Below are positions 5,028 to 44,586 of a DNA stretch of 44,586 nt, piece after piece. The first letter of the stretch is position 1, and every line of letters begins with the position of its first letter. The notes beneath the pieces were generated by a model. That model worked only from the letters and a program-made list of their open reading frames with translations, was not told the DNA's origin and did not search any database. The position numbers and the translations under genes are program-made. The stretch comes from a virus, in IMG/VR virus record IMGVR_UViG_3300027754_000173, positions 1 to 44,586 of that record. The stretch is one strand, 5' to 3'.

Positions 5028-5036
5028 AGCCATACG

Positions 5037-5309: not shown

Positions 5310-5385
5310 AGGGTTTGGTGTCCTAACCTTCTCAATGGCCGTAACTTACGGAGAAATCGCATCGTAAGGTCAGGAGGCAAACCCC
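5310..5385 (-). promoter_or_regulatory. Conserved structured 5' leader, copy 2
   Basis: On the minus strand it reads GGGGTTTGCC, then a variable part, TGCGATTTCTCC, the hairpin CCGTAA-G-TTACGG, a variable part, and GACACCAAACCC, followed by T and the ATG of the gene at 5037-5309. The order and constant blocks match copy 1. The terminal GGGTTTG/CAAACCC stem would sequester the region just before the start codon, which suggests translational control. Confidence 0.55.
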
Positions 5386-8583: not shown

Positions 8584-8964
8584 ATGTCTTCAATTTTCTG
8601 TCCATCATGTGGAGCAAAGGCTGAATATCAATTTTCAGCTCCAAATTTTTGTTCGAAATGTGGTAGATCTTATTCAAATTCATTTTCAACTCAAAAACCG
8701 CTTTTGAGATCAACTTTAAAAGCTAAAATTGCTCAAAAAAATCAAAATCTTGAAGAACCAGATGAAGAATTTGAAGAAGATGAAAATTCAGATTCAGAAG
8801 ATGACGTTTCATATTCAAATGTTTTAAGAGTTCCTCGTTTAAGAAAAATAGATGTCGAAATAGACTCTCAAACTGATGTTCGAGTATTTAAATTTGAAAA
8901 TTTTCTAGACAATGCTCAAAGTAATTTTATTAAACCTAAAAAACTAGATCTGGGAAATCCTTAA
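8584..8964 (+). CDS. Zinc-ribbon protein with acidic linker
   Basis: A 126-codon gene. The N-terminal zinc ribbon has C6-x2-C9 (CPSCG) and C23-x2-C26 (CSKCG). A strongly acidic segment (residues about 58-78, EEPDEEFEEDENSDSEDD) and a C-terminal conserved-looking part (VLRVPRLRKIDVEID) follow. The protein could contact RNA polymerase or another nucleic-acid enzyme. The next gene, a sigma-factor-like protein, overlaps its stop (TAATG), so the two are probably translated together and may act together in late transcription; that is inference. Confidence 0.75.
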   Translation: MSSIFCPSCGAKAEYQFSAPNFCSKCGRSYSNSFSTQKPLLRSTLKAKIAQKNQNLEEPDEEFEEDENSDSEDDVSYSNVLRVPRLRKIDVEIDSQTDVRVFKFENFLDNAQSNFIKPKKLDLGNP

Positions 8965-10710: not shown

Positions 10711-11629
10711 CTGTTTAGAATGTGATAAAAATTTTGAATCAGAAAGAAGTTTACATGCACATATAAAAAAGCATGATTTATTTCTTCACGATTATTATGT
10801 TAAGCATTTTGAACGCAAAAATTTATTAACTAATGAATTATTACCTTTTAAAAATAAAGATAGTTATTTTGAGCTTGATTTTGAGCATATACATCAACTT
10901 TATCAATGGTGTAATCAAGCTGACGGAACGCTTGTTAAAGAATATATAAAAGATAAACTTACAAATAGAGTTAAAAGTCGTAATTTAAAATTTGCACCAA
11001 ATGAAATTGAACTTTTCACTTCTTTTTTGCCTAAAATAGATATTTTTAAAAAAAATTTTTTAAGTTATAATTATATTTGTGAAGAATTAAATATTGAGCC
11101 TCTTTTTGGAAGTAAATTAATAGATAATTTTTGGAATCAAAATGTTTTGGAATTAAATATTATTACCGATACTAGAGAGCAGGAACCTTTATTTTTTAAA
11201 AAGCAAGTTGTCGAAAAACTAGATATTGGAGATTATGGAATAAGGGAATTTTTTGATTATACTTTTGTGGATAGAAAATCTGATCAAGATTTTAAAGCTA
11301 CGCTAAGTCAGGATAATTTAAAAAGATTTGAAAAAGAATTATTAAGAGCAAGATCAATTAGTTGTTATTTATTTATTGTTGTAGAATCAGATTTATACAA
11401 TTTAGAATTTTCTAATAAAAAATCTTATCATAAATCAAATTTAAAATATATTTATCATAACATGAGAGAGTTGCAACATGAATATAAAGATTGTTGTCAA
11501 TTCATTTTTACTGGATCTAGAACTAATAGTGAACATTTAATACCCTTGTTACTGCGTGCGGGTAAAAAAATATGGAAAACAGACATGCAGTATTATATCA
11601 ATAAAAAATATGGCTTGGGAATTAGGTAA
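10700..11629 (+). CDS. C2H2 zinc finger-ERCC4-type nuclease
   Basis: A 309-codon gene. The N-terminus is a textbook C2H2 finger: C5-x2-C8-x12-H21-x3-H25. The C-terminal half is an ERCC4/XPF-type nuclease domain: D157-T-R159-E160-Q, then L-D-I-G177-D-Y, then V-D191-R-K193-S-D-Q-D, matching the D-x-R-E, GDY and ERK motifs with Glu replaced by Asp in the last. Such nucleases cut branched or flap DNA, and in phages they often sit beside packaging genes, where they could resolve replication intermediates before packaging. The product ends 20 bp inside the terminase gene. Confidence 0.85.
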   Translation: MSFNCLECDKNFESERSLHAHIKKHDLFLHDYYVKHFERKNLLTNELLPFKNKDSYFELDFEHIHQLYQWCNQADGTLVKEYIKDKLTNRVKSRNLKFAPNEIELFTSFLPKIDIFKKNFLSYNYICEELNIEPLFGSKLIDNFWNQNVLELNIITDTREQEPLFFKKQVVEKLDIGDYGIREFFDYTFVDRKSDQDFKATLSQDNLKRFEKELLRARSISCYLFIVVESDLYNLEFSNKKSYHKSNLKYIYHNMRELQHEYKDCCQFIFTGSRTNSEHLIPLLLRAGKKIWKTDMQYYINKKYGLGIR

Positions 11630-27929: not shown

Positions 27930-30900
27930 ATGGCTCTCGATAAAATTCAAGTAACAGTAGAACCAGTTTTAAACACAACCTCTTTAGATGCAGCCATCAA
28001 TAGAGTGCAGGGTAGAACTTTAAAAGTTAGAGCTGAAGTCCAAGATCCAAATTTTGAACAAAAAATTGGTAGACCTCTTGGAAGAATAACTGGTCAAGTA
28101 GATGAATTTAAAAAGTCATTAGATGCCGCAAATGCTCGCGTGTTAGCATTCGGAGCATCTGTAGGAGTTATTGGTTTAATATCTAGTGCGTTTAAAGATT
28201 TAATAAATTCTACAATTGAAGTAGAAAAAAATCTAGCATTATTAAAAGTCACTGGAGATAAAACTTTTGGAAATTTAGAAAAGACTGGAAAAGGTGTATT
28301 CCAAATTGCAAAAGACATAGGTGTTTCATTTGCAGAAGCTACAAATGCAACTATAGAATTTTCTAGACAGGGTAAAGATTTACAACAATCTTTAGATGCT
28401 GCTAGAGCAGCTCTTGTTTTAGTAAAAACAACAGGTTTAGATGCGGTATCATCTGTAAATGGTTTAACTACAGCGGTTAATGCTTTTAGCGACTCTGGGC
28501 TTACTTATGCCGATGTAGTAAATAAAATGGCTGCAGTTGATACCAAGTTTGCTGTCAACTCAAAAGATCTTATTGAAGGTATAGGTCGTTCAGCTTCAGT
28601 TGCACAACAAGCTGGAGTATCATTTAATGAATTGCTTGGATTCATTACGGCATTGCAAGAAAAAACTGGTAGAGGTGGTCCAGTTATTGGTAATGCCCTA
28701 AAAACAATTTTTACAAGAATTCAAAATCCTGCAATAATTAATCAATTAAGAGAATTTAATATAGAATTGCAGGATACAGAAGGTAATGGCTTAAGTGCGT
28801 TACAAATATTAAAGAATTTTGCTAAAGAATTTGATAAATTAAAAGGAAATGATAAAGCTAGAGCAATTTTGGATGTTGGTGGAACTTTTCAAATTGATAA
28901 AATTGCTGCGTTAATAAAAGATCTTTCTAGCGCAAATTCAAAATTTGATCAAGCGACTGCAACGTCTGCAAATGCTAAAAATGAAGCTTATGGTAAAGTT
29001 ATAGAATTAAATAAAACATTAGATTCATCTTTAATTAAATTAAATACATCAGCTAAAGAATTTGGTTCTGCAATTGGTTCAATAGCTTTTGCCGATTCTT
29101 TTAAAGAAACTGTAAATTATATTTCTTCGAAATTTGATTCTTTAAATCAATCAATAAATGGAACAAAAACTTTAGAAGAAAGATTGGCATCTGGCGATGG
29201 AGATGGAGAAAAAGGTGGTGCAACATTAGGCAAAGCAATATTAAAAGGTATTGGCTCTGTTATTTCTGGTCCAGGTCTTTTACTTCTTGGTGGTATATTA
29301 ATTAAATTATCGGCAGATTTTGCAAAATTTTCTGCGTCTGGATTACAAACTTTATTAGGTATAACAACAAAATCCAAAGAAGAGGAATCTATTGAAGAAT
29401 CTATAGTTAATAAACTAAGAGGTAATGTTTCTCTTCAAAGACAATTATATTCATTAGGCGATGATAAAATTGCTCAAAATAAAGAATTGCTTAGACTTTA
29501 TACAGAGCAATATAATGCAAATAAAAAATTAACTGATTTAGCTAAAGGCGCTGCTCCAGCTTTATATGAAAGTGGAGTTAGATTAACTGGTGGAGAATTA
29601 ACAGTTAAAAATCTTCAAACTACAACGAAAGCATCTGCTAGTGCAAATGGTTATGTACCTAACTTCAATTCTTTAAATGAAGCGGTTTCATATGAAAAAG
29701 CCAATATGCCTGCTGGCGCAAGCGTTAAAGTAAATAAAAATTTTCCTTTTGGTGGCGGCAAGTATGGAACAATGGTAAGTAATACTTCAGAGTTTGAAAT
29801 TCCTAATTTCATGAATACTGGAGGAACTGCAATCATTCCTAGATATAAAAATGCAGTTTCTGGATATGTTCCTAATTTTGCAGATACTGAAAAGAAAAAA
29901 ACGCCTAGAAAAATTAACGAATTTCAAATTGATGCTGAAAAATATGGAATTGCAGGTTTAACATTAGGTAGCGATTCATATACTTTAGAAAGATCTAAAG
30001 CTAAAGTATTAAAAGATGAAAATGATAAACCAACAAAATGGGTAAGAGATAATTTTAGTGATTCTCCATTATTTAATTCTTTAATGAATTATGATAAAGC
30101 TGTAGTTACTAATTTACCAGTTGGTGGCGTTTACAAAGCAAGCTCAACACTAAAGTCTAACGAAAAAGATGTAAAAGCAAATTTTGTTAATAGATTAAAT
30201 AAATCTATTGGATCATCATCTTTAGCTTTTTTAATAAATGAAATTAATAATCTTAAAATTCCTTTAACTAATTCATTTAAACAAAAATTATATTCAACAG
30301 AAGTTGGAAGTTTAAATTTAATTGATAATGGCCTAGCTGGAAATTTCTTTGAGAAAGTTGTTAAACTTCCTTTGATGCAAAATGAAAAAGATTTTGGCTT
30401 CAAAAAGGAAACTGGTTCTAATTTTGATATTTATGGATTGTCTGCTCCAGATGCTAAAGTATATGGTCTTCCAGAAAGATCTTTTAGATATGGTGAAATA
30501 AAATTTAGTTCAAAAGATTTATATGACGATATTACTGAAAAGTTTTTGAATCAAGCCAAACTGGAAGTTGGAGGATCTGTGGTTCCCAAAACTAGCGTTG
30601 CGTCTTCAGCTGCGCATGGATATGTCCCCAATTTTGCAGCAACTGGTTTTGTAAAAAACAAAGATGATGGACCAAATGTAGTTGAAGAGGGAAAAATTTT
30701 TGAAAAAAATTTCTATAATTTATTAAAGATAAACATGGATGATAGGCCAAAATCTGGCGCTCCATTGGATTTACCAAAGGGAATTTTAGATAAATATGAT
30801 GATGAAACTTTATCAAAATTTGGAGTTGCAGTTGGATCTCCTTTTAGAACTTCATGGGGAGATATCAAATTATCTCATAATAAAGAAAGTGCATTAAGTT

Positions 30901-33900
30901 TAATTTCTAAATATTTTAGATATACTGGTACTTTAATAGATGAATCTAAAAAAATAAATGCATCTTCAGAAAATTTTTCAATGCTTTATAAAAATGGACC
31001 AGAAGATATTATTTTAAATAGAAAGGCATCTTTGCCTGCTTTAGTAAATGAAAGTCCTAGTTTATTCAGACAAATTTCAGAAAAATTAAGATATAAAGGT
31101 AAAGAAGAATTAAATAAAAGGGGTCAAGCCACTGAAATTGATTTTACCTATAATGCTGATCGCGTATTTACTGGTATGTCTGCATCAGCGCATAAAGGTT
31201 ACATTCCAAATTTTGCAGAAACAAAATTAGGAGAAGGTTATTCTGCAGCATTTTATGATCTTGGTTCTGGAATTGGAGAAAAAAGATTTTTTCCAGAAAT
31301 TTTAGAAGAAGATCCTAAAAAAGCAAAAACTGAAGCTACCATATCTAAAAAACTAGAACAACTAAATTCAAAATTAAAAATAGTAAGATTTCCAAAAATT
31401 TTTGGTTCTACTGCAACTTCTATAAAAAAAGAGGTTGTAACCGATCCATTAGCAGCAAAAGTATTTGATGGTGTTCAAGGACCAAGCGATGTAAAAAAAA
31501 TGTTGCAAAGAAGATTGCAAGAAACTTTAAGAATTGCATTAGCTCCAGTTCAAATAGCTGGAATAGTTCCGCAAGATTTAAATGAAAATAATTATACAGT
31601 TAATTCAAATATCCAAGCATTGCTTGGAAATATATTAAATAGTCATTCAGGAATTCCATCTGCAGAAGATTTATATAGACAAATTAATGCTTCTGGCGGA
31701 ATGATGACAATGATTGACCCTGGAGAATTTTATAAAGATAAACCAAATAAAAAAGAATTAGAAAAATTTCAAAAATATAAAGAACAAGGATTATTGGAAA
31801 ATGCTTATAATGGATATGTTCCTAATTATGCGACTGCTGCAGAAGGTTCATTTGCAACTTGGAGTGATCAAGGTAGATCAATAAGAGGTACTAATTATGG
31901 AAATAAAGTATTTAAAGAAGAAAATTCAACAACAGACTTCTTTAAAGATAATGATATAAGATTTGGTAAATTTGACGAATCTAAAGGGCAACCATATAGA
32001 GATTTTAAAATTGAACAAGAATATTTGATGGGTAAAGCTTTAGAGAGAATTGGCTCTAAGATACCAGGCGTAAGATTTCCTAAAATTTTTGGCAGTTTAC
32101 AAAGATCTTTAAAAGATAAAACTATAAGAAAAGAAGTTGCAAAAGGTCCATTAGCAAGTTCTTTTTTAGATAATTTAACTAAAAATTCAAAAGGCGTTAA
32201 TACAATTTCACGCATACAACAATTGGAGCAAAATTTAACTTCTGCGTTAATAAAACCAATAGAAAATTATGGAATAGCTCCATACGATATATCTGGAAAT
32301 CCACAAAATTATACTATAAATGACGCTTTTCAACAGGGTTTAATTTCTTTGTTTAAAGATAAAGAAGCTAGAAGAACTGTATCTAGTTTTAGAAGTCAAA
32401 CAAAAGATGAAAACCCAAAATTATATAATTTATTAAAAGAAAGTTTTGAAGAAAAACGAGAAAAAAAACAAGTTAGTGTATCAAAAGAATTCTTGTCTCA
32501 AATAATTAATAATGGTGGAATTGCAACAATTTTTGATGTTGGCCAATTTGAATTTAAAAACAAAAACCAATATGAACAAGAATTGCAAAGAGCTAACATT
32601 CAAGAATCTTTAGAATCTAGATTTAAAGAAGTATCTACTTCACCTTCATTGAATTCACAAAATTATTCTCAATTAAATTATTCTCAATTAATGCGTGCAG
32701 CTCCAAAGCGCAGAGGATATTTAGCTAAAGATGGATATGTGCCTAATTTTACTGAGCTTAGTGGTTCTGGATCTGGAATGCTTTACAATGATCCAAATTA
32801 TGATGTTTTAGGTTCAGGAACCTCTGGAATGTTTTTAGCTCCAAAATCTGGAGAAGGAATGGGTCAAAAAATATTCTTTAAATCTGATAGTGAAAAAGCA
32901 AAACATGAATATCATGTTAATAAATCATTAAAAGAATTTGAAAAATTAAATCCTACCTTATTTGCTAAAAATGCAATCTCATTTACTAATGTTGGAAATA
33001 TTTTAACAAAAAATGGATTAATCGCAGGATTTGAAAGAGAAGTCATTAAAGACCTTGGAGTCGATGAATTTGCAACTGGAACATTTCCGAATAAAAGCAA
33101 AAATTCTGGAGATGTGAACGAAATGGCAAACTATGCATTTTTCCTTTCTGAGTTTATGTCTCAGGCTGGAGCTAAAAATGTTGTAGATGAATATCGCAAA
33201 TCAAATAATGACGATTCATTTAGATTGCAAGATGTATATGCTGGAAATTTTAAAGTTAATGCTGCAATGCAAAAAGCTTTAACCGATGAAACAAACAAAA
33301 GATTTTCATTAAAAAACAAACCCAAAGATTCATATTCTGAAATAAAATCTCTAGCAGAATCAAATGGAATATCAGCTTTGAATGAAAAGTATGGAGCTAT
33401 TGGCGCTAGAAATATAATGTTTGATACAATGGGTTTTTCACAAAATGCTGTTAAGACTGCATCTAGTGGTTATATACCTAACTTTGCAATTAAAGACAAG
33501 CTTAAAGCGGGACTACCAATATTAAAAGAATTAGCAGTAAATAGTATTGAAGGATTTTTGAATTTGCCAGATAAGAGTATTGATATGATTTTAGAGGCTG
33601 TTGCTAAAAGTGGACACGCTCTTGACTATTTTGTAAATGATACTTTAAATGGCGGAAACGCAGTCAAACATAAAGAATTTGTTATAAAAAAAATGCTTGA
33701 AAGGGGCTATTGGAGTGGCGATGGTATTGTTTGGAAGCATAAAGAAACTGGAAAAATAGCTTATCGTCCCAGTACTATTAATAAAATTATAAATAAAGCT
33801 GCTGATGGATATGTTCCAAATTTTTCAAAAAAAGCAGTTCAGGATGCAGTAGAAAGAGAGCAAAAACAATCTGGTTTACCATTATCTGATATTTCTGTAG

Positions 33901-36900
33901 TAAGAGATAGTCGAGTTATGGGGCCACAAAACCCTGGAGGTTTTGCGGTAATAAATAAACGAGATGAGCCAAATGGAAAAGTTCCAAATTTTGCAGGTAG
34001 AAGTGCTGGTGATTTATTTGAAGATTTAGGTGGTAAATTAACTCCAGAAATTACTGAAAATGTAAAAGCCACAAAAGCATTAACAGAAGTAATAAAAAAA
34101 ATAACTTCTATTAATTCTTTTACTTCCTCACCTGCAAGTTCAAAGGGTTCTGGATATTTAGGCGCAGCTGCAATGTATGGATCAATATCCATTCCAACAA
34201 CGACTACTACTGAGATAGAAACTAAATCAAAAAGAGGAAAACCTAAAATAGATTCAGTATCAAGTTCTTTATTGATTCCACAAGGTCAAGCTTATGATTT
34301 ATCTAATACATCTGATAAAGATCACCTAAGTAAAGAAGAAAATGCAAAAAGAATTGAAGAAAGAATAAAAACAAATTCATTCTCACTTCCTCCTTCACCT
34401 ATTGCTAGACAATCTCAAAATTATTCATATAGATCATTACCACCAATTGATCCTAACACTCAAAAAAGTTTTAATCCATTTTTAAAAAATAATTTTGCGA
34501 GTGAATTATTTCCTTATTCACCATCTAATGAAAAAGCGGAAGCTTTAGCGGTTAAGGCAAGAATTAAAATTCCACTTTATCGATCAAATGTTCCAGGCGT
34601 AAATAAAGATATTAATGAGTCTCGATTGGTTGGTTATTCAGAAAGAGGTCAGTCTTCAGATCCAATTACTCAATTTAAAGATTTAAAAGAATCAGTATTA
34701 AAAAGTAAAGAAAATTTTAATAAATTAGCTTCTGAAATTGCAATACTTTCAACTCAGCTACAAAAAGATGGAAAAGAAATGCATACTTTTCAAGATCAAT
34801 TAGCTGCATCAACAAAATTTTTAAAAAATGTTGGGATTGACATTTCACCTAAACTTCTTAGTGACTTAACTAAAGGTACTGCTTTTGAACAAACTGAAAA
34901 ACAATCAAAAAAATCTACAAATGATGCTTTGGTTCAAAGAGCTGTTTCACTTTCAGAAGTAAATCCAAATACTGAAAGAAATTTTCAAATGCAGGCTCAA
35001 GCTTTTGCTGCAGAAAGGCAGCGACAAAGATATGCACAATACGCTCAAGCTCAAACAAACGTATATGGATCATTTGCAACTCCAAATGTAGGGCCACCTA
35101 CTACTCAAGACGATATTAAAAAATCTTTATATGATAGAATGAAATCGGGAGTAGGATCAATAATTGGTTCTTCAAAAGTTTTAACTGAACAAGAAAAAGC
35201 TCAAAAATTAGAAAAAGATAAATTAATAGCGCAAGAAAAAGCAAATAAATCAATGGCAGATTCTTTTGCCACAATTATGAAATGGCAAACTGGGATTGCT
35301 GCATTAACTGGTGCGGTTAGCGTACTTGGAGAAGGTGCTACAGTCGCAGCAACTTCTATTGGATCACTTTTTAATAGTGTAATTTTAGCAAAAGAAGGAA
35401 TGTCTGGAGCTAAAGATATTCTTGGCAAAACTACTTATGAATATACTACAGCTTCTGGAGAAAAGAAAACTGGAGAAAGAAATAAAACATTTGGAGAATC
35501 TTTCAACGCAATAAATAAAAAAATTGACGAAGGCATGGGCACTGGTGATGGTGCGGGCACTGGATTTTTGGGAATTGTAGGTGGAATAAAAAATGCAAAA
35601 GGTGAAATAGGTACTTTTGCTAAAGCAGCAGGAATTGCAGCTTTATCATGGGGCACTGTTGCTTTTCAGGCGATTCAAAATATTGATCAAGTTTGGAAAT
35701 ATCTTGATAATGGAGCTGAAAAAAGCAAAAAAGCAATTGCTAAAGTCGCAGAAATGCAAGATAAATATAATATAAGTTTGGGTAGATCTCAGGAATCCGT
35801 AGCTAAAATGATTTCAGTAATTGGTGATTCTGATACTGAAGGATTGATGGGCGCATTTACTAGGGCTGGAATAATTTTTGGAAGAGAGCAGTTTGGTGGT
35901 CAAGATAAGCAAACAACTGCTTTAGCACAATTTAAATTTGGCAATGAGGGTACAAAAGTTGTCGCAGGTGAATTATCTAAAATAATGTCCGCAACAGCAA
36001 GCACTCAAATGTCAGAACAGGATAAAAAAAATCCACTTAAAGTTGCAATTGAAGCTTCTAAATTACAAGGAAATTTTTTAGAAAATATAATAAATAAATA
36101 TTCAAATGATGTCGTTTCAGAAAGACAAGTTCCAATGACTGCAGAAGAATTAAAGTCTGAAACCCTTTTCGGTAAATTGGTAAAAATGCTTGCATTTGGA
36201 GCTGGACCTGGTAATGGAGCTAAACCTGCCCTACCTGGAATGAAATTAGAAGTAATCACACAAAGAGTTCTTGATGCTTCAAAAGCTGCAGAAATGCAAT
36301 CCGAATTATTTGACGAACTTCAAAAACAAGCCCAGTTAGTTTTACCTAAAATAAATGAAGAAGAAAAAAGAAGAGCAAGCATATTAGGTGTATCGGTTGA
36401 TACCTTGAAGGTTCAATTAGATCTATATACAAAAATCACAAAAGCAATTAATGATACAAAAACAGGTTTAGAATTTAATTTAGAAATTGAAAAAGATGAT
36501 TTAGGTACAACTCAAAAAAGAAAAGATGAAATTGAATTACAATTAAAACTTCTACAAAAAGAAAAAGAAATACGTTCTCAGAAAAACGATATTGCAAGTT
36601 CGGTTTCTCAAAAAGAAATTTTTGATCGTTTAAAAGGTCAATTAGGAGGCTTAACAGAACCTCAGTATCAACAATATAGTGAAAGTTTTAAATCTATAAA
36701 TCTTGGAATTCAAAAAGGAGATACATCTTCACAGTCTGCTGAAAAATTAGCTGATTTATTGACTGCTTTAGGAGTTCAATCATCTCAATTAAAACAAGAA
36801 GCTGCAGATCTTTTGAACTCTCAATTAAGTTCTATTGATATTATTGGTAATAAAGATAAGTTATTATTAAAATTAGAAACAGATAAATTACAAGTAAGTA

Positions 36901-39755
36901 AATTCTATAAATATGAACAAGATCAAATAAAAGAAAGATTAGAAGCTCAATTAACTGTTTCTCAAAAAAATTTAGCAGTCAGAAAAGAAGAAGCTTCAAT
37001 AATTCAAAATATTAAAGATTTGCAATTTAAAACTTCAATTGCCGAACTTGGCCCAAGAACTCAGGAATTATTAACTAAACAAAGAGAGCCTGAAAATCAA
37101 TTACAAAAAGATAACCAAGCATTGCAGTTCAGAAGAGAAGAGTCATTTCAATCTACAAAAAGAAATGTTATAAATTATGTAACTCAAAGTAATCCAGAAA
37201 TTTTTAAAGACGAAAAAGCTGCTGCCGCTTTATATGGATCAAAAAGCTTATCTGATTTAAAAGATGCATTAATTAAAGTAAAACAATTACAAGAAGAACA
37301 AGCAAAGGTAGATCCCATAAAACTTAGTGGTGATTATTTTAGCAATGGAGTAAAAAGAGCTACTGATACTTTAGAAAGTGCATTTGATATAATTGGAAAG
37401 AAATTTGCTGAAAAATTAGGTTTACCTTCATTTGATGTCAATAAACCTGCAGAATTAAAATTAGAAAAACAATTTAATAAAGATAATTTTTTAAAGAAAG
37501 GAGAGTATTCTGATGCAGAAATGGGAATTCAATTTCCCTTAACATTATTTCCAACTGGAACTGAATCATTAAGCAATCCACTTGGTGAAAAATTTTTAAA
37601 GCCAATAAGTTTAGGTAAAACTAATTCTTCAGAATTAGTTCCATTTGATGCTAAAGATTTATTTTCAACATTAACGCCAACAAATAGTAATATACCATTT
37701 AAACAAACAGAAATAGTATTACGTTCTGTTGATTCAGCTTTAAAAACTTCTACTGGTACTGCCACTAAAACCACTGAATCTGCAAAAAAAGCAGAAGAAG
37801 CTGTACGTAAGGTTAATATTGACGAATTCTTTAAAAGTTTCTTAGAAACAATTCCAGATAAAGCTATTCGAGATGAAATTAAAGCCAAGTATGAAAATGC
37901 AATTAAAGATAGACAAACTTTTGTTAGAAGAAGTACTACATTTTCTGGTGGAATGGAAGAATCCAAACTTAAAATGGATGAAGATATTAAATATTTTAAC
38001 AATACTTTAGGAAAACAAATTCCAAATGATTTTGCATCTTCAATGAAAGATGCATTAAAAGAACTTTCAAATCCAAATTCAACAGAACCTTTAAAAAATA
38101 GATTATTGGGAGTTGCTAATGCTTTTTTATTAAAGATACAAGATGCATTTATGACTCAAGCAGCTAATCAAATAACAAGTGGTATTATGGGAATTGGAGG
38201 AAAAGCTGCTGGAGGTCCAATTGTTGGAGGATCTGGAGTTAAAGACGATGTTCCAGCGATGTTAATGGGTGGTGAATATGTTATTACAAAATCGGCTGCA
38301 CAAAAATATGGCCCAGAATTTTTATCTGCTTTAAATAGGGGTTCAATTAAAAAATTTGCAACAGGTGGATTTGTCGAATCAGATACAACTAAATATCAAG
38401 ATACTTCAAAAATAACTCCATATGGTCAAACAAGAGATAAAGGATTATCGTTTGATGCTTCTGGCAAAGTTATTGGAATGGATAGTTATACTGGAACTGC
38501 AGATAATAAAGAAGATGCAATGAGAAAAGCTCAATCTGATTATTATTATAAAAATGCTCAAAATGGAGAGGGTGGATTTTACATGCCTGGACAAAATGGA
38601 ATGGGTGCAATAATGGGGCAAAAAAATTTATTAGCATTTGCTACTCAACAATCTGCTGGTACTAAATTTGATAAATTTTCATCTGGAGCAAATTCTGCTG
38701 GAATTGATTTGGGTGCTGGTAGTGCTAATATGTCTTTGTTTGCATTAAGAAATCAAGGAAATTCTAAAAATACAGAATATTCTGAAGCAAAACAAAAAGC
38801 ATTAGATTTATATCTGGGTGGAATTGACGCTTCAAAAGAAAAAGCAAATAAAGAAGAAGATATTAGAAAAGATATTGAAAAAGCAATACAAGAATATAAA
38901 ACTGCAGAAAGAAAACAATATCAAAGTCTTATTAGAAATTTTGTAATATCTGCTGCTATGGCAGGAATTAGTTACGCTGGAAATAAAATGATGACAACTG
39001 GTGGTCAAGAAGCGCAAAGTGGAAAAATAGAATCCATAAATAATGAAATAGATACTAAAGGTTACTCTAATCAAGGAATTTCACAAAATGGAGAAATTTA
39101 TAGCGCCTCAAATAGAGCTTCAATTGATAATACTAGAATAACAAGTGGTGAAAAATTTTTTGGATACGAAGGAAAAGGTGGATTTTTTAGAGGATCATTG
39201 TCTGGAGATAATAATAAATTTATATCTAATGGTAAAGGAATGTATTCTTGGGATGGTGGAGGTTATAGTCGAATGAATGATAATTCATTTTCAGGTAAAC
39301 AGTGGGCACAAATGAATTATTCAGCAAAACCAATTCAAATAGGAGGCGAAACATATTATCCAGCCTCAATGGGAAGGCGTGCGGCAGGCGGTTATGTTCC
39401 AGGAAATGGCATGGGAGATAATGTTCCAACAATGTTAAATGGTGGAGAATTTGTGGTTTCTAAACAAGCTACGCAAAATATTGGAATAAATAAATTGCAA
39501 CAAATAAATTCAGGATCAAAATCTTCTGATGTCTCAGAAGAATTACTATCTAAATTAGATGAACTTGTTGAAAAATTAAGTGCAGTTGGCACTTTAAATA
39601 TAACAGTTAATTCTGATTCAAGTGGAAATCAAAAATCATCAAAAGAATCAAGTAATAATCAAGATCAGCAAACTAAAGATCTTGCTAAAAGAATTAAAGA
39701 TGTAGTTTTAGGCGTTCTTAGAGAAGAAAAACGACTTGGAGGTATGTTGAGATAA
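27930..39755 (+). CDS. Giant tape measure protein with embedded enzyme-like domains
   Basis: A 3,941-codon gene. Residues 1-330 are a TP901/PhageMin-type tape measure domain (NARVLAFGASVGVIGLISSAF, FAEATNATIEFSRQG, TGRGGPVIGNALKTIFTRI). Hydrophobic segments occur near 440-475, 2450-2485, 2560-2585 and 3665-3685. Residues 574-2021 carry nine G-Y-V-P-N-F motifs with nuclease-like and kinase-like domains between them. Residues about 2690-3100 are coiled coil. Two GG-DDVPAML-GGEYV boxes typical of tape measure C-termini are near 3428-3455 and 3820-3848. It sets tail length and usually enters the host with the DNA. Only about 2,400 residues look like real tape. The next gene overlaps the stop (TAATG). 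Confidence 0.92.
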   Translation: MALDKIQVTVEPVLNTTSLDAAINRVQGRTLKVRAEVQDPNFEQKIGRPLGRITGQVDEFKKSLDAANARVLAFGASVGVIGLISSAFKDLINSTIEVEKNLALLKVTGDKTFGNLEKTGKGVFQIAKDIGVSFAEATNATIEFSRQGKDLQQSLDAARAALVLVKTTGLDAVSSVNGLTTAVNAFSDSGLTYADVVNKMAAVDTKFAVNSKDLIEGIGRSASVAQQAGVSFNELLGFITALQEKTGRGGPVIGNALKTIFTRIQNPAIINQLREFNIELQDTEGNGLSALQILKNFAKEFDKLKGNDKARAILDVGGTFQIDKIAALIKDLSSANSKFDQATATSANAKNEAYGKVIELNKTLDSSLIKLNTSAKEFGSAIGSIAFADSFKETVNYISSKFDSLNQSINGTKTLEERLASGDGDGEKGGATLGKAILKGIGSVISGPGLLLLGGILIKLSADFAKFSASGLQTLLGITTKSKEEESIEESIVNKLRGNVSLQRQLYSLGDDKIAQNKELLRLYTEQYNANKKLTDLAKGAAPALYESGVRLTGGELTVKNLQTTTKASASANGYVPNFNSLNEAVSYEKANMPAGASVKVNKNFPFGGGKYGTMVSNTSEFEIPNFMNTGGTAIIPRYKNAVSGYVPNFADTEKKKTPRKINEFQIDAEKYGIAGLTLGSDSYTLERSKAKVLKDENDKPTKWVRDNFSDSPLFNSLMNYDKAVVTNLPVGGVYKASSTLKSNEKDVKANFVNRLNKSIGSSSLAFLINEINNLKIPLTNSFKQKLYSTEVGSLNLIDNGLAGNFFEKVVKLPLMQNEKDFGFKKETGSNFDIYGLSAPDAKVYGLPERSFRYGEIKFSSKDLYDDITEKFLNQAKLEVGGSVVPKTSVASSAAHGYVPNFAATGFVKNKDDGPNVVEEGKIFEKNFYNLLKINMDDRPKSGAPLDLPKGILDKYDDETLSKFGVAVGSPFRTSWGDIKLSHNKESALSLISKYFRYTGTLIDESKKINASSENFSMLYKNGPEDIILNRKASLPALVNESPSLFRQISEKLRYKGKEELNKRGQATEIDFTYNADRVFTGMSASAHKGYIPNFAETKLGEGYSAAFYDLGSGIGEKRFFPEILEEDPKKAKTEATISKKLEQLNSKLKIVRFPKIFGSTATSIKKEVVTDPLAAKVFDGVQGPSDVKKMLQRRLQETLRIALAPVQIAGIVPQDLNENNYTVNSNIQALLGNILNSHSGIPSAEDLYRQINASGGMMTMIDPGEFYKDKPNKKELEKFQKYKEQGLLENAYNGYVPNYATAAEGSFATWSDQGRSIRGTNYGNKVFKEENSTTDFFKDNDIRFGKFDESKGQPYRDFKIEQEYLMGKALERIGSKIPGVRFPKIFGSLQRSLKDKTIRKEVAKGPLASSFLDNLTKNSKGVNTISRIQQLEQNLTSALIKPIENYGIAPYDISGNPQNYTINDAFQQGLISLFKDKEARRTVSSFRSQTKDENPKLYNLLKESFEEKREKKQVSVSKEFLSQIINNGGIATIFDVGQFEFKNKNQYEQELQRANIQESLESRFKEVSTSPSLNSQNYSQLNYSQLMRAAPKRRGYLAKDGYVPNFTELSGSGSGMLYNDPNYDVLGSGTSGMFLAPKSGEGMGQKIFFKSDSEKAKHEYHVNKSLKEFEKLNPTLFAKNAISFTNVGNILTKNGLIAGFEREVIKDLGVDEFATGTFPNKSKNSGDVNEMANYAFFLSEFMSQAGAKNVVDEYRKSNNDDSFRLQDVYAGNFKVNAAMQKALTDETNKRFSLKNKPKDSYSEIKSLAESNGISALNEKYGAIGARNIMFDTMGFSQNAVKTASSGYIPNFAIKDKLKAGLPILKELAVNSIEGFLNLPDKSIDMILEAVAKSGHALDYFVNDTLNGGNAVKHKEFVIKKMLERGYWSGDGIVWKHKETGKIAYRPSTINKIINKAADGYVPNFSKKAVQDAVEREQKQSGLPLSDISVVRDSRVMGPQNPGGFAVINKRDEPNGKVPNFAGRSAGDLFEDLGGKLTPEITENVKATKALTEVIKKITSINSFTSSPASSKGSGYLGAAAMYGSISIPTTTTTEIETKSKRGKPKIDSVSSSLLIPQGQAYDLSNTSDKDHLSKEENAKRIEERIKTNSFSLPPSPIARQSQNYSYRSLPPIDPNTQKSFNPFLKNNFASELFPYSPSNEKAEALAVKARIKIPLYRSNVPGVNKDINESRLVGYSERGQSSDPITQFKDLKESVLKSKENFNKLASEIAILSTQLQKDGKEMHTFQDQLAASTKFLKNVGIDISPKLLSDLTKGTAFEQTEKQSKKSTNDALVQRAVSLSEVNPNTERNFQMQAQAFAAERQRQRYAQYAQAQTNVYGSFATPNVGPPTTQDDIKKSLYDRMKSGVGSIIGSSKVLTEQEKAQKLEKDKLIAQEKANKSMADSFATIMKWQTGIAALTGAVSVLGEGATVAATSIGSLFNSVILAKEGMSGAKDILGKTTYEYTTASGEKKTGERNKTFGESFNAINKKIDEGMGTGDGAGTGFLGIVGGIKNAKGEIGTFAKAAGIAALSWGTVAFQAIQNIDQVWKYLDNGAEKSKKAIAKVAEMQDKYNISLGRSQESVAKMISVIGDSDTEGLMGAFTRAGIIFGREQFGGQDKQTTALAQFKFGNEGTKVVAGELSKIMSATASTQMSEQDKKNPLKVAIEASKLQGNFLENIINKYSNDVVSERQVPMTAEELKSETLFGKLVKMLAFGAGPGNGAKPALPGMKLEVITQRVLDASKAAEMQSELFDELQKQAQLVLPKINEEEKRRASILGVSVDTLKVQLDLYTKITKAINDTKTGLEFNLEIEKDDLGTTQKRKDEIELQLKLLQKEKEIRSQKNDIASSVSQKEIFDRLKGQLGGLTEPQYQQYSESFKSINLGIQKGDTSSQSAEKLADLLTALGVQSSQLKQEAADLLNSQLSSIDIIGNKDKLLLKLETDKLQVSKFYKYEQDQIKERLEAQLTVSQKNLAVRKEEASIIQNIKDLQFKTSIAELGPRTQELLTKQREPENQLQKDNQALQFRREESFQSTKRNVINYVTQSNPEIFKDEKAAAALYGSKSLSDLKDALIKVKQLQEEQAKVDPIKLSGDYFSNGVKRATDTLESAFDIIGKKFAEKLGLPSFDVNKPAELKLEKQFNKDNFLKKGEYSDAEMGIQFPLTLFPTGTESLSNPLGEKFLKPISLGKTNSSELVPFDAKDLFSTLTPTNSNIPFKQTEIVLRSVDSALKTSTGTATKTTESAKKAEEAVRKVNIDEFFKSFLETIPDKAIRDEIKAKYENAIKDRQTFVRRSTTFSGGMEESKLKMDEDIKYFNNTLGKQIPNDFASSMKDALKELSNPNSTEPLKNRLLGVANAFLLKIQDAFMTQAANQITSGIMGIGGKAAGGPIVGGSGVKDDVPAMLMGGEYVITKSAAQKYGPEFLSALNRGSIKKFATGGFVESDTTKYQDTSKITPYGQTRDKGLSFDASGKVIGMDSYTGTADNKEDAMRKAQSDYYYKNAQNGEGGFYMPGQNGMGAIMGQKNLLAFATQQSAGTKFDKFSSGANSAGIDLGAGSANMSLFALRNQGNSKNTEYSEAKQKALDLYLGGIDASKEKANKEEDIRKDIEKAIQEYKTAERKQYQSLIRNFVISAAMAGISYAGNKMMTTGGQEAQSGKIESINNEIDTKGYSNQGISQNGEIYSASNRASIDNTRITSGEKFFGYEGKGGFFRGSLSGDNNKFISNGKGMYSWDGGGYSRMNDNSFSGKQWAQMNYSAKPIQIGGETYYPASMGRRAAGGYVPGNGMGDNVPTMLNGGEFVVSKQATQNIGINKLQQINSGSKSSDVSEELLSKLDELVEKLSAVGTLNITVNSDSSGNQKSSKESSNNQDQQTKDLAKRIKDVVLGVLREEKRLGGMLR
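29892..30584 (+). other. PD-(D/E)XK nuclease-like domain I in the tape measure protein
   Basis: Between motifs 2 and 3. E808 (GNFFEKVVKLPL), D833 (SNFDIYGL) and E856-I-K858 (RYGEIKFSS) follow the order and spacing of the E, D and E-x-K residues of PD-(D/E)XK nucleases. All candidate catalytic residues are present, so it could be active. The assignment is by motif only. Confidence 0.5.
30672..31184 (+). other. PD-(D/E)XK nuclease-like domain II in the tape measure protein
   Basis: Between motifs 3 and 4. E925 (GKIFEKNFYNLL), D947 (GAPLDLPKG) and D978-I-K980 (WGDIKLSH) repeat the pattern of domain I with Asp in the last motif. It is shorter than domain I. Confidence 0.45.
31215..31799 (+). other. 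Kinase-like domain I in the tape measure protein
   Basis: Between motifs 4 and 5. A Gly-rich start G1101-E-G-Y with K in GEKRF, a helix Glu (E1135, EATISKKL), the catalytic-loop-like D1216-L-N-E-N-N1221 (D and N five apart as in HRDxxxxN; the His is Pro), and the DFG-like I-D1263-P-G-E-F. VRFPKIFGS (1152-1160) is shared with domain II. Confidence 0.5.
31827..32723 (+). other. Kinase-like domain II in the tape measure protein
   Basis: Between motifs 5 and 6. RGTNYGNK1326-VFK resembles the glycine loop plus Lys, VRFPKIFGS at 1381-1389 matches domain I, A-P-Y-D1453-I-S-G-N-P-Q-N fits a catalytic loop with extra residues, and I-F-D1536-V-G-Q-F fits DFG. It looks paralogous to domain I but more degenerate in the catalytic loop. 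Confidence 0.5.
32751..33464 (+). other. Kinase-like domain III in the tape measure protein
   Basis: Between motifs 6 and 7. G1628-S-G-T-S-G glycine loop, Q-K1647-I-F-F, an E-helix (EYHVNKSL), G-F-E-R-E-V hinge-like strand, L-Q-D1768-V-Y-A-G-N1773 with canonical D-to-N spacing, and M-F-D1832-T-M-G. It is the most kinase-like glycine loop of the three. Confidence 0.5.
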
Positions 39756-40654: not shown

Positions 40655-41642
40655 TAATCCGTTTTTTTATAATAAAGATTTATCAGTAGATTCAGAAAAA
40701 TATTCATATACTGATGCAACTATATACAAAGCTATATATGGATCGTCTGTTTCATATGTTTCTAGATTGAATTATTTACAAACAGTAGATAATGCATTAA
40801 AAATTCTTCCATCATCTGAAAACAATTTAACAATTAAATATAATTTAAAATTTTTATTGAATGATTTAAATTCTGGAAATTTATTAAAAACTATAGAAAT
40901 AGCTGGTGGATATAGATATTTAAAATTTAAAGATCCATCTAATTTTTATTTAGATATGATTGGTTTTGTTGAGGATTATTCTATTAATAAAATTTCTACA
41001 AATTTAAATGAAATATCCATATCTATATCTTCTTATGTTAAAGCTCCAATATTTAAATGGAGAACAAGCTGTTTATTAAATAACATAAGTAAAGATAATA
41101 CTGAATGGAAATCAGCCACTAATTATTTAAAGGGAGATTTTGTATATAATGATTTTAAAAATTTTACGAAAAATAAAATTGATAATTTTTGGTTTGCAAC
41201 TCAAGATATACCAAATACAGAATCAACATTCAATACCTCATATTGGACTAAAAATTTTAATTATGATTTAAAATTACCATTTGAATTAAATAATAGTTTT
41301 GATATATATCAATTAAATTACAAAAATTCATATATCCAAAATATAAAACATAAAGATAATTCAAATTCATTGAAACAGTTTAATGTTAAACTTACAAATA
41401 TAACTGATAGAGAATGTAGATCTGTTTTATTTTTTTTAGAAAAAAAATGTGGATATAGAAGATTTATTTATGAATTTCCAATATATTTAAAAAATAAAAA
41501 AGTTTTTATATGTACTGCTTGGAATCATACTTTAAAATTTTTAAATTGTAATGATATAGATATGACATTTGTTGAAGATCCAAATCCAAATATATTTATT
41601 GATAATAGTAATGTTAATAATCCGCAGTATTATGTAATATAA
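40644..41642 (+). CDS. Minor tail protein, lambda gpM-like C-terminus with CBM-like insert
   Basis: A 332-codon gene. The C-terminal 80 residues (ECRSVLFFLEKKCGYRRFIYE, then VFICTAWNHTLKF, then DMTFVEDP) follow the pattern of the phage minor tail protein family that includes lambda gpM: Phe/Tyr-rich strands, C-x-x-W, and a final T-F-x-E. An internal segment at about 149-196 (EWKSATNYLKGDFVYND, then FWFATQDIP, then YWTKNF) looks like a small carbohydrate-binding (chitin-binding type 3-like) module with the W-x-x-x-x-x-Y-x-x-G-D-x-V signature. It is probably at the tail tip and may touch the cell surface. Confidence 0.65.
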   Translation: MAYNNPFFYNKDLSVDSEKYSYTDATIYKAIYGSSVSYVSRLNYLQTVDNALKILPSSENNLTIKYNLKFLLNDLNSGNLLKTIEIAGGYRYLKFKDPSNFYLDMIGFVEDYSINKISTNLNEISISISSYVKAPIFKWRTSCLLNNISKDNTEWKSATNYLKGDFVYNDFKNFTKNKIDNFWFATQDIPNTESTFNTSYWTKNFNYDLKLPFELNNSFDIYQLNYKNSYIQNIKHKDNSNSLKQFNVKLTNITDRECRSVLFFLEKKCGYRRFIYEFPIYLKNKKVFICTAWNHTLKFLNCNDIDMTFVEDPNPNIFIDNSNVNNPQYYVI

Positions 41643-41645
41643 TAT

Positions 41646-44586
41646 ATGGCTTACGCAGATTTAATATGTAGTATTGATTTATCTGGTTCTTTATTTAGAA
41701 CAGATACAAATCAAACTTGTTTTTATAAAATAGGTTGTGCTAATTATTATGATTGCGACGATGGATTAGGAGGCACATTTTGCGATAATCTTTATTTATA
41801 TTATGGTCAGTGTATCGCATTAGAATGTGGATCTGATATAGTAGGAAATTATTGTATTCAAATTGATGCATATGAATCTTATATATACTGCGCATATGCA
41901 TACGTTGCTTATGATTATGGCACACTTGTAAATTGTTGCAATCTTTACTTATACATTAGAAGTGATCTATTTAAAAGTCAATGTATTTTAAGTTATTCTT
42001 GTGGCTTTTTTAATGCAGCAGTATTACCAACATATCAATGTATAAATTATATATATAATGATAATGATGTCATCAATATATATAATGATTTATATAATGA
42101 CTACAGATGCAGATTTACTTATTATTACGTATGCGCATCTAATGAATTTTGTTTTCAATCTTGCATGTTATCGCTAACTGGCGAAGCTATTATTGCTAAT
42201 ATTTCTTGTATAGATTTATGCATACCAGAATTATGTACAACTTTAGCAAATGGATGTTTATATTGTTTTTCCGATAATACTTGCGCTTCTATATACTGTT
42301 GTTCAGATTATAATTTTTGTGAAATTGGAAATTTTGAATTTGTTTCTGATGGTCAAGGTTCATATAAAATAAAAAATACTTTACTATATCCAACAAAAAA
42401 TGTAATAATCGATTGGGATTTTAGTAAAAGTACAAAAAATAAATATTTTAATTCCACAATAAATTCTTCTGGTCAAAATATTTTTATTTGCTTAAACAAA
42501 TTAGAAAATTCTTTTTATGAAGTAAATACTACAGATAATTCTACAGTATTTTTGTATGAAGCTTATAATAATTGTTCAATTATATTTAATCAAATACAAA
42601 AATCTTTAATTTATTTTAGAAATATTGGAGCATGTAATTTAAATTTGTGTTTAACAAACACAGGTGAATATTTGGAGTTTGATAAATTAACAACATTAAA
42701 TTGTTATAATTTTAAAAATATAACCTTAAAGCCAAAAGATTCTATATTTTTAACTTTAAATTCTTCTTTAGATGGATCTAAATATTATGCTACAACATCT
42801 TTTCCATATGGATTTTTTTATGAATTTAAAAATATAGAAACAGTAAATCCATATGGAGCATATCCATCTTGTTGTTTTATTAATCAAGATAATTCGTGCA
42901 TTAAATTATATGCATATAATAATATTCATTCTGGAGTTTTATGCTTTTGTCAAACTGGATATTTTTTATGTTATAAAAAATTTGCATCAATGGGTGAAAA
43001 TTTAATTGTTGATACAAATGTAGATTTAGAAATTTCATTTTCAAAGCGAGTATGCGATTCTCCAGATTTAGATATAACTTATACAATTGAAAATAAAAAT
43101 TATTGCTCTATATTTGAAAATAATTTTATAAAAAATAATTTAATTATTAATTGTATATCACTTTTTGATTCAAATACAAATGAAATAGTATTAAATAATT
43201 TAGATTTATATTGCTTAAATATTAATTCTGATAAATGTATAAAAATTATCTATGATATAGATATTTACAATTCTTGTACTTCATCTTTATATTATATTGA
43301 TTGTTATTCTGGTAATCCAAATTATGATTTATGTATAATATCAACTGATAAATTTAATAAAACTAAAATTTTTTTCAAAAGATGTATATTAAATAATAAT
43401 GGAATTTTTTATTTAGAAGATAATATTAATTCTAGAGTTTGCATAAATTTAATAGAAAATTCATCTATTAAAGATTTAAAAAATTCAATAGTAAATAGAA
43501 ATAATTTATTTTTACCTGATACGTGTCAATTTAATTATAATTATAATTTTTATTTAAAAGATTATCACGACATTGATAAATCATTAAGTGGAAGTTGGAT
43601 AAATGAAAATAATCAATCATATTGTACTAGTGGATTTGTAAACTGTTCTTTTATTATTGACTCTTGTTCAGATATTTTTAATTGTAATTTTACTGGTTTA
43701 TACGAAATAAATATAAATATAGATGAAAGTAGAAAAAATACAAATTTAATATTAAATAAAAATAATTCAAATATTAGTGAAGATTTTTGTTTATTTTCAC
43801 CAAAAATTAAAAAATGTTTTAATTTTTGTGGACTTGATTTTTGTTATAATTATTTTGATTGTATAGTTTATCAAAATAATTTTTATGAAATTAATAATTC
43901 AAATATAGATATGACTTTTGAAGTAACTGGAAAATGTCTTACTTTTAATTTTCCAATAAATGCAATCAATGCTGATAAAATAAATATTAATACTCAATAT
44001 GAAATCTTTAATAATATAAATTATATAAATACAAATATGTCATATAGTGGATTGTTATTAAATTGCGATACTATAGAAAATTCAAATAATAAAATATTAA
44101 AAATTCCTATACTGCGTTGCTGTGATTTAAGTTGTTTTGAATATCCAAGTTTATCTTTAAGTATTTTTAATAATAAAATAATTCAAAAAAATATTAATTT
44201 TAGTATTAACATTTTTAACAAATTCATTGATAATGATGATTATTGTTTAAATACTTTTTTATTATTTATATCTTCTTATCTAAATAATGGAATTGCATCT
44301 CAATTAAGTGTGGAAGATTTATGTTGTAATTATGGTTATAATTCAAGTAATTATAATTTTTTAATGATGGATTTAAGGAATGAATTTATTGATAATAATT
44401 TTATAATTCCTAGTGGACAATATCTTTTATTTGATGAAAGAATATCTTTTTCAGATGTTACAAATTGTTTATTAATTCCATATAAAAATATAACTGGAAA
44501 TGGTTATAATTACATTATTCCAATAAATAATTTATTATCTTATTGTGATTCATATTATACTGGAATTGAAAATATTACTATTCAAT
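41646..44586 (+). CDS. Cys-rich giant tail-tip/adhesin-like protein (incomplete, runs off the window)
   Basis: An open frame starts at the ATG at 41646, three bases after the preceding stop, and has no stop through the last base, so at least 980 codons. It begins MAYADLICSIDLSGSLFRTD. I count about 68 Cys in 980 residues, with 27 in the first 230 (near 12%), often about ten residues apart and in several CC pairs (NCC, YCC, SCC, RCC, LCC). Asn, Ile, Tyr and Phe are also very frequent. Beta-strand-like repeats suggest an elongated structural protein. The family is not recognised. The position after distal tail genes suggests a tail-tip or fibre protein. Confidence 0.75.
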   Translation, partial: MAYADLICSIDLSGSLFRTDTNQTCFYKIGCANYYDCDDGLGGTFCDNLYLYYGQCIALECGSDIVGNYCIQIDAYESYIYCAYAYVAYDYGTLVNCCNLYLYIRSDLFKSQCILSYSCGFFNAAVLPTYQCINYIYNDNDVINIYNDLYNDYRCRFTYYYVCASNEFCFQSCMLSLTGEAIIANISCIDLCIPELCTTLANGCLYCFSDNTCASIYCCSDYNFCEIGNFEFVSDGQGSYKIKNTLLYPTKNVIIDWDFSKSTKNKYFNSTINSSGQNIFICLNKLENSFYEVNTTDNSTVFLYEAYNNCSIIFNQIQKSLIYFRNIGACNLNLCLTNTGEYLEFDKLTTLNCYNFKNITLKPKDSIFLTLNSSLDGSKYYATTSFPYGFFYEFKNIETVNPYGAYPSCCFINQDNSCIKLYAYNNIHSGVLCFCQTGYFLCYKKFASMGENLIVDTNVDLEISFSKRVCDSPDLDITYTIENKNYCSIFENNFIKNNLIINCISLFDSNTNEIVLNNLDLYCLNINSDKCIKIIYDIDIYNSCTSSLYYIDCYSGNPNYDLCIISTDKFNKTKIFFKRCILNNNGIFYLEDNINSRVCINLIENSSIKDLKNSIVNRNNLFLPDTCQFNYNYNFYLKDYHDIDKSLSGSWINENNQSYCTSGFVNCSFIIDSCSDIFNCNFTGLYEININIDESRKNTNLILNKNNSNISEDFCLFSPKIKKCFNFCGLDFCYNYFDCIVYQNNFYEINNSNIDMTFEVTGKCLTFNFPINAINADKININTQYEIFNNINYINTNMSYSGLLLNCDTIENSNNKILKIPILRCCDLSCFEYPSLSLSIFNNKIIQKNINFSINIFNKFIDNDDYCLNTFLLFISSYLNNGIASQLSVEDLCCNYGYNSSNYNFLMMDLRNEFIDNNFIIPSGQYLLFDERISFSDVTNCLLIPYKNITGNGYNYIIPINNLLSYCDSYYTGIENITIQ

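Follow-up and report, generated by a model that had tools for sequence, protein, structure and literature searches.

The tape measure protein (TMP) of an uncultured phage contains an internal cassette of segments bounded by a short GYVPNF-type motif, and close relatives have swapped these segments as modules, with DNA breakpoints at the motif. The phage is represented by IMG/VR record IMGVR_UViG_3300027754_000173, of which positions 1 to 44,586, here called the window, were analysed. This layout suggests a second role for the tail ruler, as a vehicle for proteins acting in the host cell. We consider it likely that the TMP carries an exchangeable effector cassette, which would be packed in the tail, leave with the TMP and act in the host.

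The cassette and its boundary motif

The 3,941-aa ORF product is a TMP of the PhageMin_Tail type, with the TMP domain, a long ORF and a surrounding tail gene cluster. It matches PHROG tape measure families (down to 4e-41), and the second gene 3' of the TMP gene matches the minor tail protein PF05939 (5.8e-6, under the curated cut-off). The cassette spans aa 574-2021, and the coordinates given for it in the initial annotation, 29649-33992, are exact to the base. The normal tape ends described there were also recovered, the PhageMin_Tail domain on the N-terminal side and the repeat-bearing normal TMP end on the C-terminal side (Table 1). In the cassette 10% of the residues are aromatic, and its helix-forming composition is lower than that of the tape at aa 2400-3430.

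Table 1. Features of the tape measure protein gene in the window
Feature	Residues (aa)	Position	Strand	Basis
Tape measure protein gene	3,941 aa	27930..39755	+	ORF; PhageMin_Tail 5.6e-28; PHROG tape measure families
PhageMin_Tail domain	126-318	28305..28883	+	Pfam PF10145, E 5.6e-28
Hydrophobic, possibly membrane-spanning stretch, N-terminal to cassette	436-465	29235..29324	+	Hydropathy scan
s1, conserved N-cap opening with GYVPNF	574-644	29649..29861	+	N-caps from other phages 44-47% identical, E as low as 8e-15; alignments
s2, putative PD-(D/E)XK-type nuclease	645-896	29862..30617	+	Residues invariant in 5 homologues; hhalign 97.4% to family C0
s3, putative PD-(D/E)XK-type nuclease	897-1089	30618..31196	+	Family C2 alignment; hhalign 93.5% to C0
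s4, putative kinase-like domain	1090-1294	31197..31811	+	Family C7 alignment
s5, putative second kinase-like domain	1295-1601	31812..32732	+	blastp E 4e-14 vs s4, about 31% identity; alignment
s6, possible degenerate kinase-like domain	1602-1846	32733..33467	+	By-eye alignment only
s7, module also present in relatives L311 and L312	1847-1959	33468..33806	+	37-39% identity there
s8, conserved C-cap	1960-2015	33807..33974	+	C-caps from dozens of phages as much as 60% identical; alignments
Ninth, variant motif GKVPNF, end of cassette		33975..33992	+	GKVPNF likewise in relative L313
C-terminal TMP region, GGxVxG...GE[FY]V-type repeats, normal end	~3334-3941	37929..39755	+	43-47% identical in L310-L313

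The motif copies start at positions 29649, 29862, 30618, 31197, 31812, 32733, 33468, 33807 and 33975, all in the TMP frame. Of the earlier claim of nine GYVPNF copies, the number holds and the identical sequence does not. Eight copies read G-Y-[VI]-P-N-[FY] (five GYVPNF, two GYIPNF, one GYVPNY) and one reads G-K-V-P-N-F. These eight closer copies have no further occurrence in the six frames of the window. Tape measure proteins are often repetitive, and the copies could in principle be chance or low-complexity repeats within an ordinary TMP. However, the pattern G[YFK][VI]PN[FY] occurs nine times as against a mean of 0.001 in shuffled versions of the window TMP, and it is kept across hundreds of contigs while missing from the TMPs of four related cultured phages (Slash, WRP3, FADO and SPbeta). 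These shuffling statistics, together with the clustering of breakpoints at the motif described below, refute this reading and leave it a negligible probability.

All nine motif 18-mers differ in their DNA, therefore conservation acts at the protein level; the varied codons noticed earlier are thus nine encodings for nine copies. The reported Ala/Ser enrichment immediately upstream of the motif is real as well, with A or S at position -2 in 86% of 796 instances. Position +6 is A in 73% of these instances, which is partly a selection effect, because the search patterns required Ala there. Information is scant beyond about -5/+7. We rejected a derivation of cap or motif from the C-terminal repeats of the TMP, as hhalign gave no relation. 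The motif was not found in the literature searched.

Other uncultured IMG/VR phages carry the motif too, mostly in several copies per TMP and from the same starting place. A long ORF with the motif is present in 281 of the 305 loci listed, 254 of these 281 having at least two copies, and nearly all of the 138 complete-start ORFs have the first motif at residue 529-639 (median 625, maximum 1,479). All 9,180 pairs among 136 TMP N-termini are homologous, therefore they represent one TMP family. Across the relatives, the conserved N-cap and C-cap enclose variable segments. For example, L310-L313 are 41-43% identical to the window TMP at aa ~1-900 and 43-47% identical at aa ~3334-3941, and differ from it in the cargo between. 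MAG contigs suggest aquatic Flavobacteriia and Verrucomicrobia as possible hosts. A search of 50,697 cultured-phage records did not recover the caps, and cultured phages yielded no cassette homologues, essentially only the conserved TMP ends matching. A search of viral contigs with the whole TMP gave no match, with patterns that were specific to the window.

Modules are exchanged at the motif

Different segments are found in phages whose TMP N-termini are 82-98% identical; close relatives exchange unrelated domains of differing length. Among the loci listed, a subset of the IMG/VR and metagenome copies, 108 ordered pairs that differ in cargo gave 298 homology breakpoints. Of these, 78% lie at most 20 nt from a motif centre, compared with 8.7% under random placement; in a deduplicated set of 163 breakpoints, 69% are near the motif. 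In L046 and L211, the DNA is 96% identical until 5 nt beyond a motif, and in each of the two homology restarts with the opening base of a motif. The difference between L041 and L166 is one motif-to-motif unit. The initial annotation had proposed a modular system with the motif as a boundary, and the homologues back this at both the protein and the DNA level: the motif does delimit the modules and coincides with the exchange boundaries. For TMPs, a 2023 study surveying mosaicism in phage proteins reported a mosaic signal, but no genuine recent case could be confirmed (PMC10684548). The recent TMP swaps presented here are visible in DNA, with breakpoints at a defined motif, and bear on this open point.

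Such precise insertions at the motif would also fit selfish elements, homing-like nucleases that invade the TMP gene at the motif DNA and whose presence is tolerated. The commonest segments bear a nuclease signature (see below), and nuclease genes have been reported where phages exchange DNA (PMC10448857). Yet many modules belong to other kinds (GNAT, tRNA nucleotidyltransferase, kinase-like), and the elements would have no fixed DNA target, because 785 motif copies are encoded in 388 different ways and codon matching of the copies within a TMP is only in slight excess (0.52 vs 0.47 expected). The fixed position, the paired caps and the uninterrupted reading frames point instead to selection at the protein level, and colonisation by selfish elements seems to us quite improbable.

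Enzyme-like segments in the window and its relatives

The claim that the segments look like enzymes stands for relatives, in which several motif-bounded segments are enzyme domains. One segment matches the Pfam PolyA_pol head (L092, 9.6e-15), with a tRNA nucleotidyltransferase PHROG match of 8.5e-58 in the same set, and others match staphylococcal nuclease (SNase; L195, 2e-9), GNAT (6.7e-8) and HATPase_c (5e-5). For the window's own segments, none of which has a Pfam match above the curated cut-off, the enzyme identity is putative, drawn from the conservation of catalytic-type residues and from profile comparison. With the same qualification for the window's share, several distinct enzymatic domains occur in one phage protein, as is typical of polyvalent proteins. 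Among the loci listed, 409 motif-bounded segments form 125 clusters, 80 of them singletons, in many orders and combinations. Most segments match no recognisable family, and the families listed for 217 segments include no known polyvalent-associated or peptidase domain.

The commonest segment family, C0, has the E...D...(D/E)xK residues of PD-(D/E)XK nucleases, with E in 83/84, D in 84/84 and [DE]xK in 84/84 sequences at a mean column identity of 13%. Its AF2 model (pLDDT 78.8, pTM 0.71, motif end of low confidence) is mixed alpha/beta. Thus the one well-predicted segment family is not the helical tape that would have spoken against the initial annotation. The PD-(D/E)XK assignment is a signature call, because Foldseek gave the model no significant match in either PDB or BFVD. 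Segments s2 and s3 align to C0, with candidate catalytic residues E808, D833, E856 and K858 in s2 (invariant across 5 homologues) and E925, D947, D978 and K980 in s3.

Segments s4 and s5 are putatively kinase-like, a call made at the level of residues. Candidates in s4 are K1118, E1135, D1216, N1221 and D1263 (DPG); across seven sequences the kinase-type residues E, D, N, D and G are invariant, and the Lys is present by eye. The AF2 model of s4 is poor (pLDDT 43) and gave no fold match, and the family member L253 had no Pfam kinase match up to E 10. PDB sequence searches with the kinase-like, nuclease-like and C-cap profiles returned chance-level hits only, and the PADLOC defence models a single marginal hit (2.1e-4). 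A MAFFT alignment spanning the entire cassette, meant for structure prediction, was set aside, as the fragments came out scattered. By-eye calls of a HAD phosphatase (L046), an ADP-ribosyltransferase (L098) and HExxH metalloproteases (L068, L114) had no Pfam confirmation and are leads only. An intein-like insertion was dropped, as no intein or splicing family was matched and the segments hold enzyme domains.

Could the segments be purely structural, as globular or extended tape, with the motif as a repeated contact to the tube or to an assembly chaperone? In mycobacteriophage TM4, loss of a 114-aa enzymatic motif from the TMP makes the tail ~20 nm shorter (PMC1796659). Therefore, domains embedded in a TMP can serve as tape in that phage and add to tail length, which also weighs against the cargo reading. 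At about 0.15 nm per residue, the window TMP would correspond to a tail of roughly 590 nm with the cassette counted and 375 nm with it left out. A role without enzymatic activity is nevertheless highly improbable for this cassette, given the catalytic-type residues kept at such low identity, the Pfam enzyme matches between motifs and the swapping of unrelated domains of unequal length by close relatives.

Cargo delivery and comparison with known systems

In the explanation that we favour, a conserved N-terminal TMP domain is followed by the hydrophobic stretch, the N-cap, a variable string of domains that would fold independently, and the C-cap. The cargo of the window would comprise two putative PD-(D/E)XK-type nucleases, two kinase-like domains, possibly a third, degenerate one, and one further module. 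By analogy with phage polyvalent proteins, it would be packed in the tail with the TMP and is probably ejected into the host, leaving with the TMP and acting at the start of infection in host takeover or counter-defence. Some proteins ejected from the phage head are known to act in the host early in infection. Nuclease, kinase and tRNA nucleotidyltransferase modules imply cytoplasmic targets. The fit of such large folded cargo in the tail lumen is a point against this reading.

Alternatively, the modules may act in the producing cell. The TMP would then be a polyprotein with the motif as a protease site, and the cassette would be excised ahead of tail assembly or in its course, without ever entering the virion. 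As expected of a protease site, the motif is short and linear and lies in linkers whose surrounding residues show little conservation. Cassette length and the length of the rest of the tape are uncorrelated (r 0.02, n 58), and proteolytic loss of internal TMP segments is mentioned for other phages (PMC1796659). However, no protease family was matched among the 20 window genes scanned, most of which are without a known family, and modules of use to the producing cell alone could be encoded by separate genes. Their location within the one ejected protein argues for delivery, and we regard action in the producing cell as rather unlikely.

With less certainty than delivery itself, the motif [AS]xG[FY][IV]PN[FY]A, which would sit in a flexible linker before and after each domain, may be a recognition site under protein-level selection. 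It could be cleaved to release each domain, or docked during threading, or it may be no more than a tolerant linker, and a fixed motif linker would be a place where a module swap remains functional. More tentatively still, the tail ruler might be a delivery platform with a standardised, motif-defined loading bay for effector exchange, the motif serving as release or threading signal. If the delivery reading is true, the TMP would serve generally to carry early effectors in a phage group without a member found among cultured records, and caps and motif would offer a simple sequence handle for finding hundreds of unrecognised injected proteins. The delivered domains would be candidate new nucleases, kinases and counter-defence proteins.

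Other virion-borne proteins are delivered at infection, among them MuF-type polymorphic toxins, T4 Alt, N4 vRNAP and P1 DarB, some with exchangeable domains. Unlike the TMP here, their carriers are head or portal-associated proteins, and none of them is known to have a tail-ruler cassette or a GYVPNF-type boundary. Polyvalent proteins, which are large and multidomain, are encoded by phages and conjugative elements and believed to enter the host along with the phage DNA (Iyer et al. 2017, PMC5512222). They resemble the cassette in the domain kinds they share with it (kinases, in the cassette putative, GNATs and nucleotidyltransferases), in the proposed separation of domains at deployment, and in kinases without the C-terminal subdomain, reported mainly in (pro)phages of Verrucomicrobia-Chlamydia and Bacteroidetes. 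TMPs are absent from the main text of that paper, whereas here the carrier is a TMP, and fixed N-cap, C-cap and a short boundary motif take the place of built-in peptidases. The mt3 motif of TM4 gp17 (PMC1796659) is likewise an enzyme domain inside a TMP and dispensable for viability. It differs as a single 114-aa peptidoglycan hydrolase motif with a cell-wall target, without a motif-bounded string, caps or swapping at motif sites. Sle1, a TMP-related contractile injection effector (PMC13277306), shares the TMP-like carrier, the exchangeable domains and the location inside a tail-like particle. No sheath was matched among the 20 window genes scanned. Sle1 belongs to a bacterial contractile system and has one C-terminal functional domain after a coiled coil, whereas the phage cassette described here is internal, holds multiple modules and is bounded by a motif.

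Anatomy and spread of the cassette

The window, classed as linear in its IMG/VR virus record (44,586 bases), encodes a tape measure protein (TMP) with nine copies of a hexapeptide motif within residues 574-2021 (GYVPNF five times, GYIPNF twice, GYVPNY and GKVPNF once each), compared with a mean of 0.001 copies expected in shuffled versions. The DNA encoding differs among all nine, so that selection is on the protein. Across phages the motif follows the consensus [AG][AS]xG[FY][IV]PN[FY]A, and conservation is slight further out; the Ala at +6 stems in part from how the search patterns selected matches. This slight conservation fits a short linear motif within a linker, as does the motif end of one segment family, which AF2 models at low confidence.

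The cassette, the motif-divided central part of the TMP, has a conserved cap at each end. The C-cap follows the consensus GYVPNFAxPLxxAIxRExAAGVPxSxIRVxxxxxLxxxxNPxGLGVxNTRDEP. Some phages carry a second type in its place (...GNKAILDT...PFPFIRNxSQ..FAxAxxDHGG), as the last motif-bounded segment of loci L018, L058, L095, L103 and L114. Between the caps, 409 variable segments of at least about 95 residues were grouped into 125 clusters (80 with a single member) and occur in many orders. Cassette length does not correlate with the remaining tape length (r 0.02, n 58).

The motif proved widespread in three degenerate-DNA scans of IMG/VR. Among the matches listed, 281 of 305 loci carry it in a long ORF, 254 of these 281 with at least two copies. 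Of 138 ORFs with a complete start among the matches listed, nearly all have their first motif at residue 529-639 (median of the set 625, maximum 1,479). Every pair of 136 TMP N-termini among these matches could be aligned, and they therefore represent one tape measure family. As far as tested, the motif is confined to uncultured phages: in 50,697 cultured-phage records the C-cap had no match at E 1 and the window cassette none at 0.01, and the motif was not found in the literature searched. Motif-bearing contigs were binned with Flavobacteriaceae, Verrucomicrobiales and Halobacteriovorax MAGs, binning being weak host evidence. Two contigs of one Halobacteriovorax MAG (L308 and L309) encode TMPs of at least 4,202 and 5,001 residues, with seven motif copies each and an apparently identical cassette.

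Features of the window TMP, of related TMPs (L-numbered loci of uncultured phages) and of the rest of the window
Feature	Location	Observation
TMP gene	window 27930-39755	ORF, 3,941 aa
N-cap, first segment (s1)	TMP aa 574-644	conserved family, cassette start in other phages
C-cap, last segment (s8)	TMP aa 1960-2015	conserved family, cassette end in other phages
PolyA_pol head	L092:7557-8981	tRNA nucleotidyltransferase-like, between two motifs inside TMP; Pfam 9.6e-15
SNase	L195:8760-9362 (-)	staphylococcal-nuclease domain, motif-bounded TMP module; Pfam 2e-9
ADP-ribosyltransferase-like module	L098:5535-6209 (-)	by eye, no Pfam confirmation
HAD phosphatase-like module	L046:615-1061 (-)	by eye, no Pfam confirmation
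HExxH metalloprotease-like modules	L068:2314-3222 and L114:8274-8867 (-)	by eye, no Pfam confirmation
Region without long ORFs	window 1-5900	G+C about 45% (rest of contig about 30%); no phage DNA match, no Rfam match; either numerous small genes of an early region or foreign/chimeric stretch
PhoH	window 7857-8582	near zinc finger/ERCC4-like gene
Sigma-70-like gene	window 8964-9665	near zinc finger/ERCC4-like gene
Zinc finger/ERCC4-like gene	window 10700-11629	one protein; C2H2-type zinc finger match (5.5e-6) and ERCC4 nuclease-like match (4.9e-5, narrowly below cut-off)
Open ORF	window 41642-44586	at least 981 aa, 20.7% G+C, directly after tail genes, past contig end; probably part of a large tail or fibre protein, truncated

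Cargo modules

Besides the Pfam-supported modules in the table, motif-bounded segments of relatives include GNAT (Pfam 6.7e-8) and HATPase_c (Pfam about 5e-5) domains, and a PHROG tRNA nucleotidyltransferase match reached 8.5e-58. In C0, the commonest segment family, Asp and (D/E)xK are retained in all 84 sequences and Glu in 83 of them, at a mean column identity of 13%; this is the residue signature of PD-(D/E)XK nucleases. The AF2 model of C0 is mixed alpha/beta (pLDDT 78.8, pTM 0.71) and had no significant Foldseek match, so that C0 is a putative PD-(D/E)XK nuclease, called from its signature.

In the window, no segment had a Pfam match above cut-off. Segments s2 and s3 show the C0 residue pattern and align to its profile with 97.4% and 93.5% probability. 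Segments s4 and s5 are related to each other and to family C7. The E, D, N and DxG positions are invariant among them, and they also have a Lys and a start rich in glycine. They are putatively kinase-like, a residue-level call because the AF2 model was poor and without fold match. Segment s6 may be a degenerate copy, and s7 is common to the window TMP, L311 and L312.

Module exchange at the motif

The TMPs of the four relatives L310-L313 match that of the window at 41-43% identity in the first ~900 residues and at 43-47% in the last ~600, with differing modules in between. In closer pairs, differing cargo follows N-termini that are 82-98% identical. At DNA level, the alignments break at the motif. 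Between L046 and L211, DNA identity is 96% as far as 5 nt beyond a motif, and the two become homologous again at the first base of a motif in each. A single motif-to-motif unit separates L041 from L166; L275 and L288 have different first modules and differ by one whole later module. In 108 ordered pairs, drawn from 46 loci, 78% of 298 homology breakpoints lie at most 20 nt from a motif centre, against 8.7% under uniform placement; since pairs share loci, breakpoints are not fully independent, and after deduplication the share is 69% of 163. A conserved motif could lengthen a match by its own length, not draw a distant breakpoint to itself. These data show a string of exchangeable domains, delimited by the motif and bracketed by the caps; in relatives, several such domains are enzymes. 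A recent survey found mosaic signal in tape measure proteins, with recent cases that it could not confirm (PMC10684548); the swaps described here are such cases.

A fixed DNA recombination site at the motif is countered by 388 encodings among 785 copies and a same-codon rate of 0.52 (0.47 expected). The motif is probably a peptide recognition site, to be cut or docked, and we infer that it also marks where a module swap keeps function.

Probable delivery and known systems

Other virion-borne enzymes are known to enter the host with the phage and act early. Because the cargo sits inside a protein that fills the tail and would leave it at ejection, it most likely enters the host together with the TMP and acts there at an early stage; polyvalent proteins have been proposed to do the same (PMC5512222). 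One chief doubt about delivery comes from TM4, in which an embedded enzyme motif added to tail length (PMC1796659).

The window cassette would work like polyvalent and polymorphic-toxin carriers, but the carrier protein differs, being here the TMP. Their typical peptidase or associated domains were not found by Pfam in the window segments or in the relatives' segments examined. Sle1-type effectors (PMC13277306) are alike in having a TMP-like carrier with swappable domains, whereas the cassette described here is internal, multi-module and motif-bounded.
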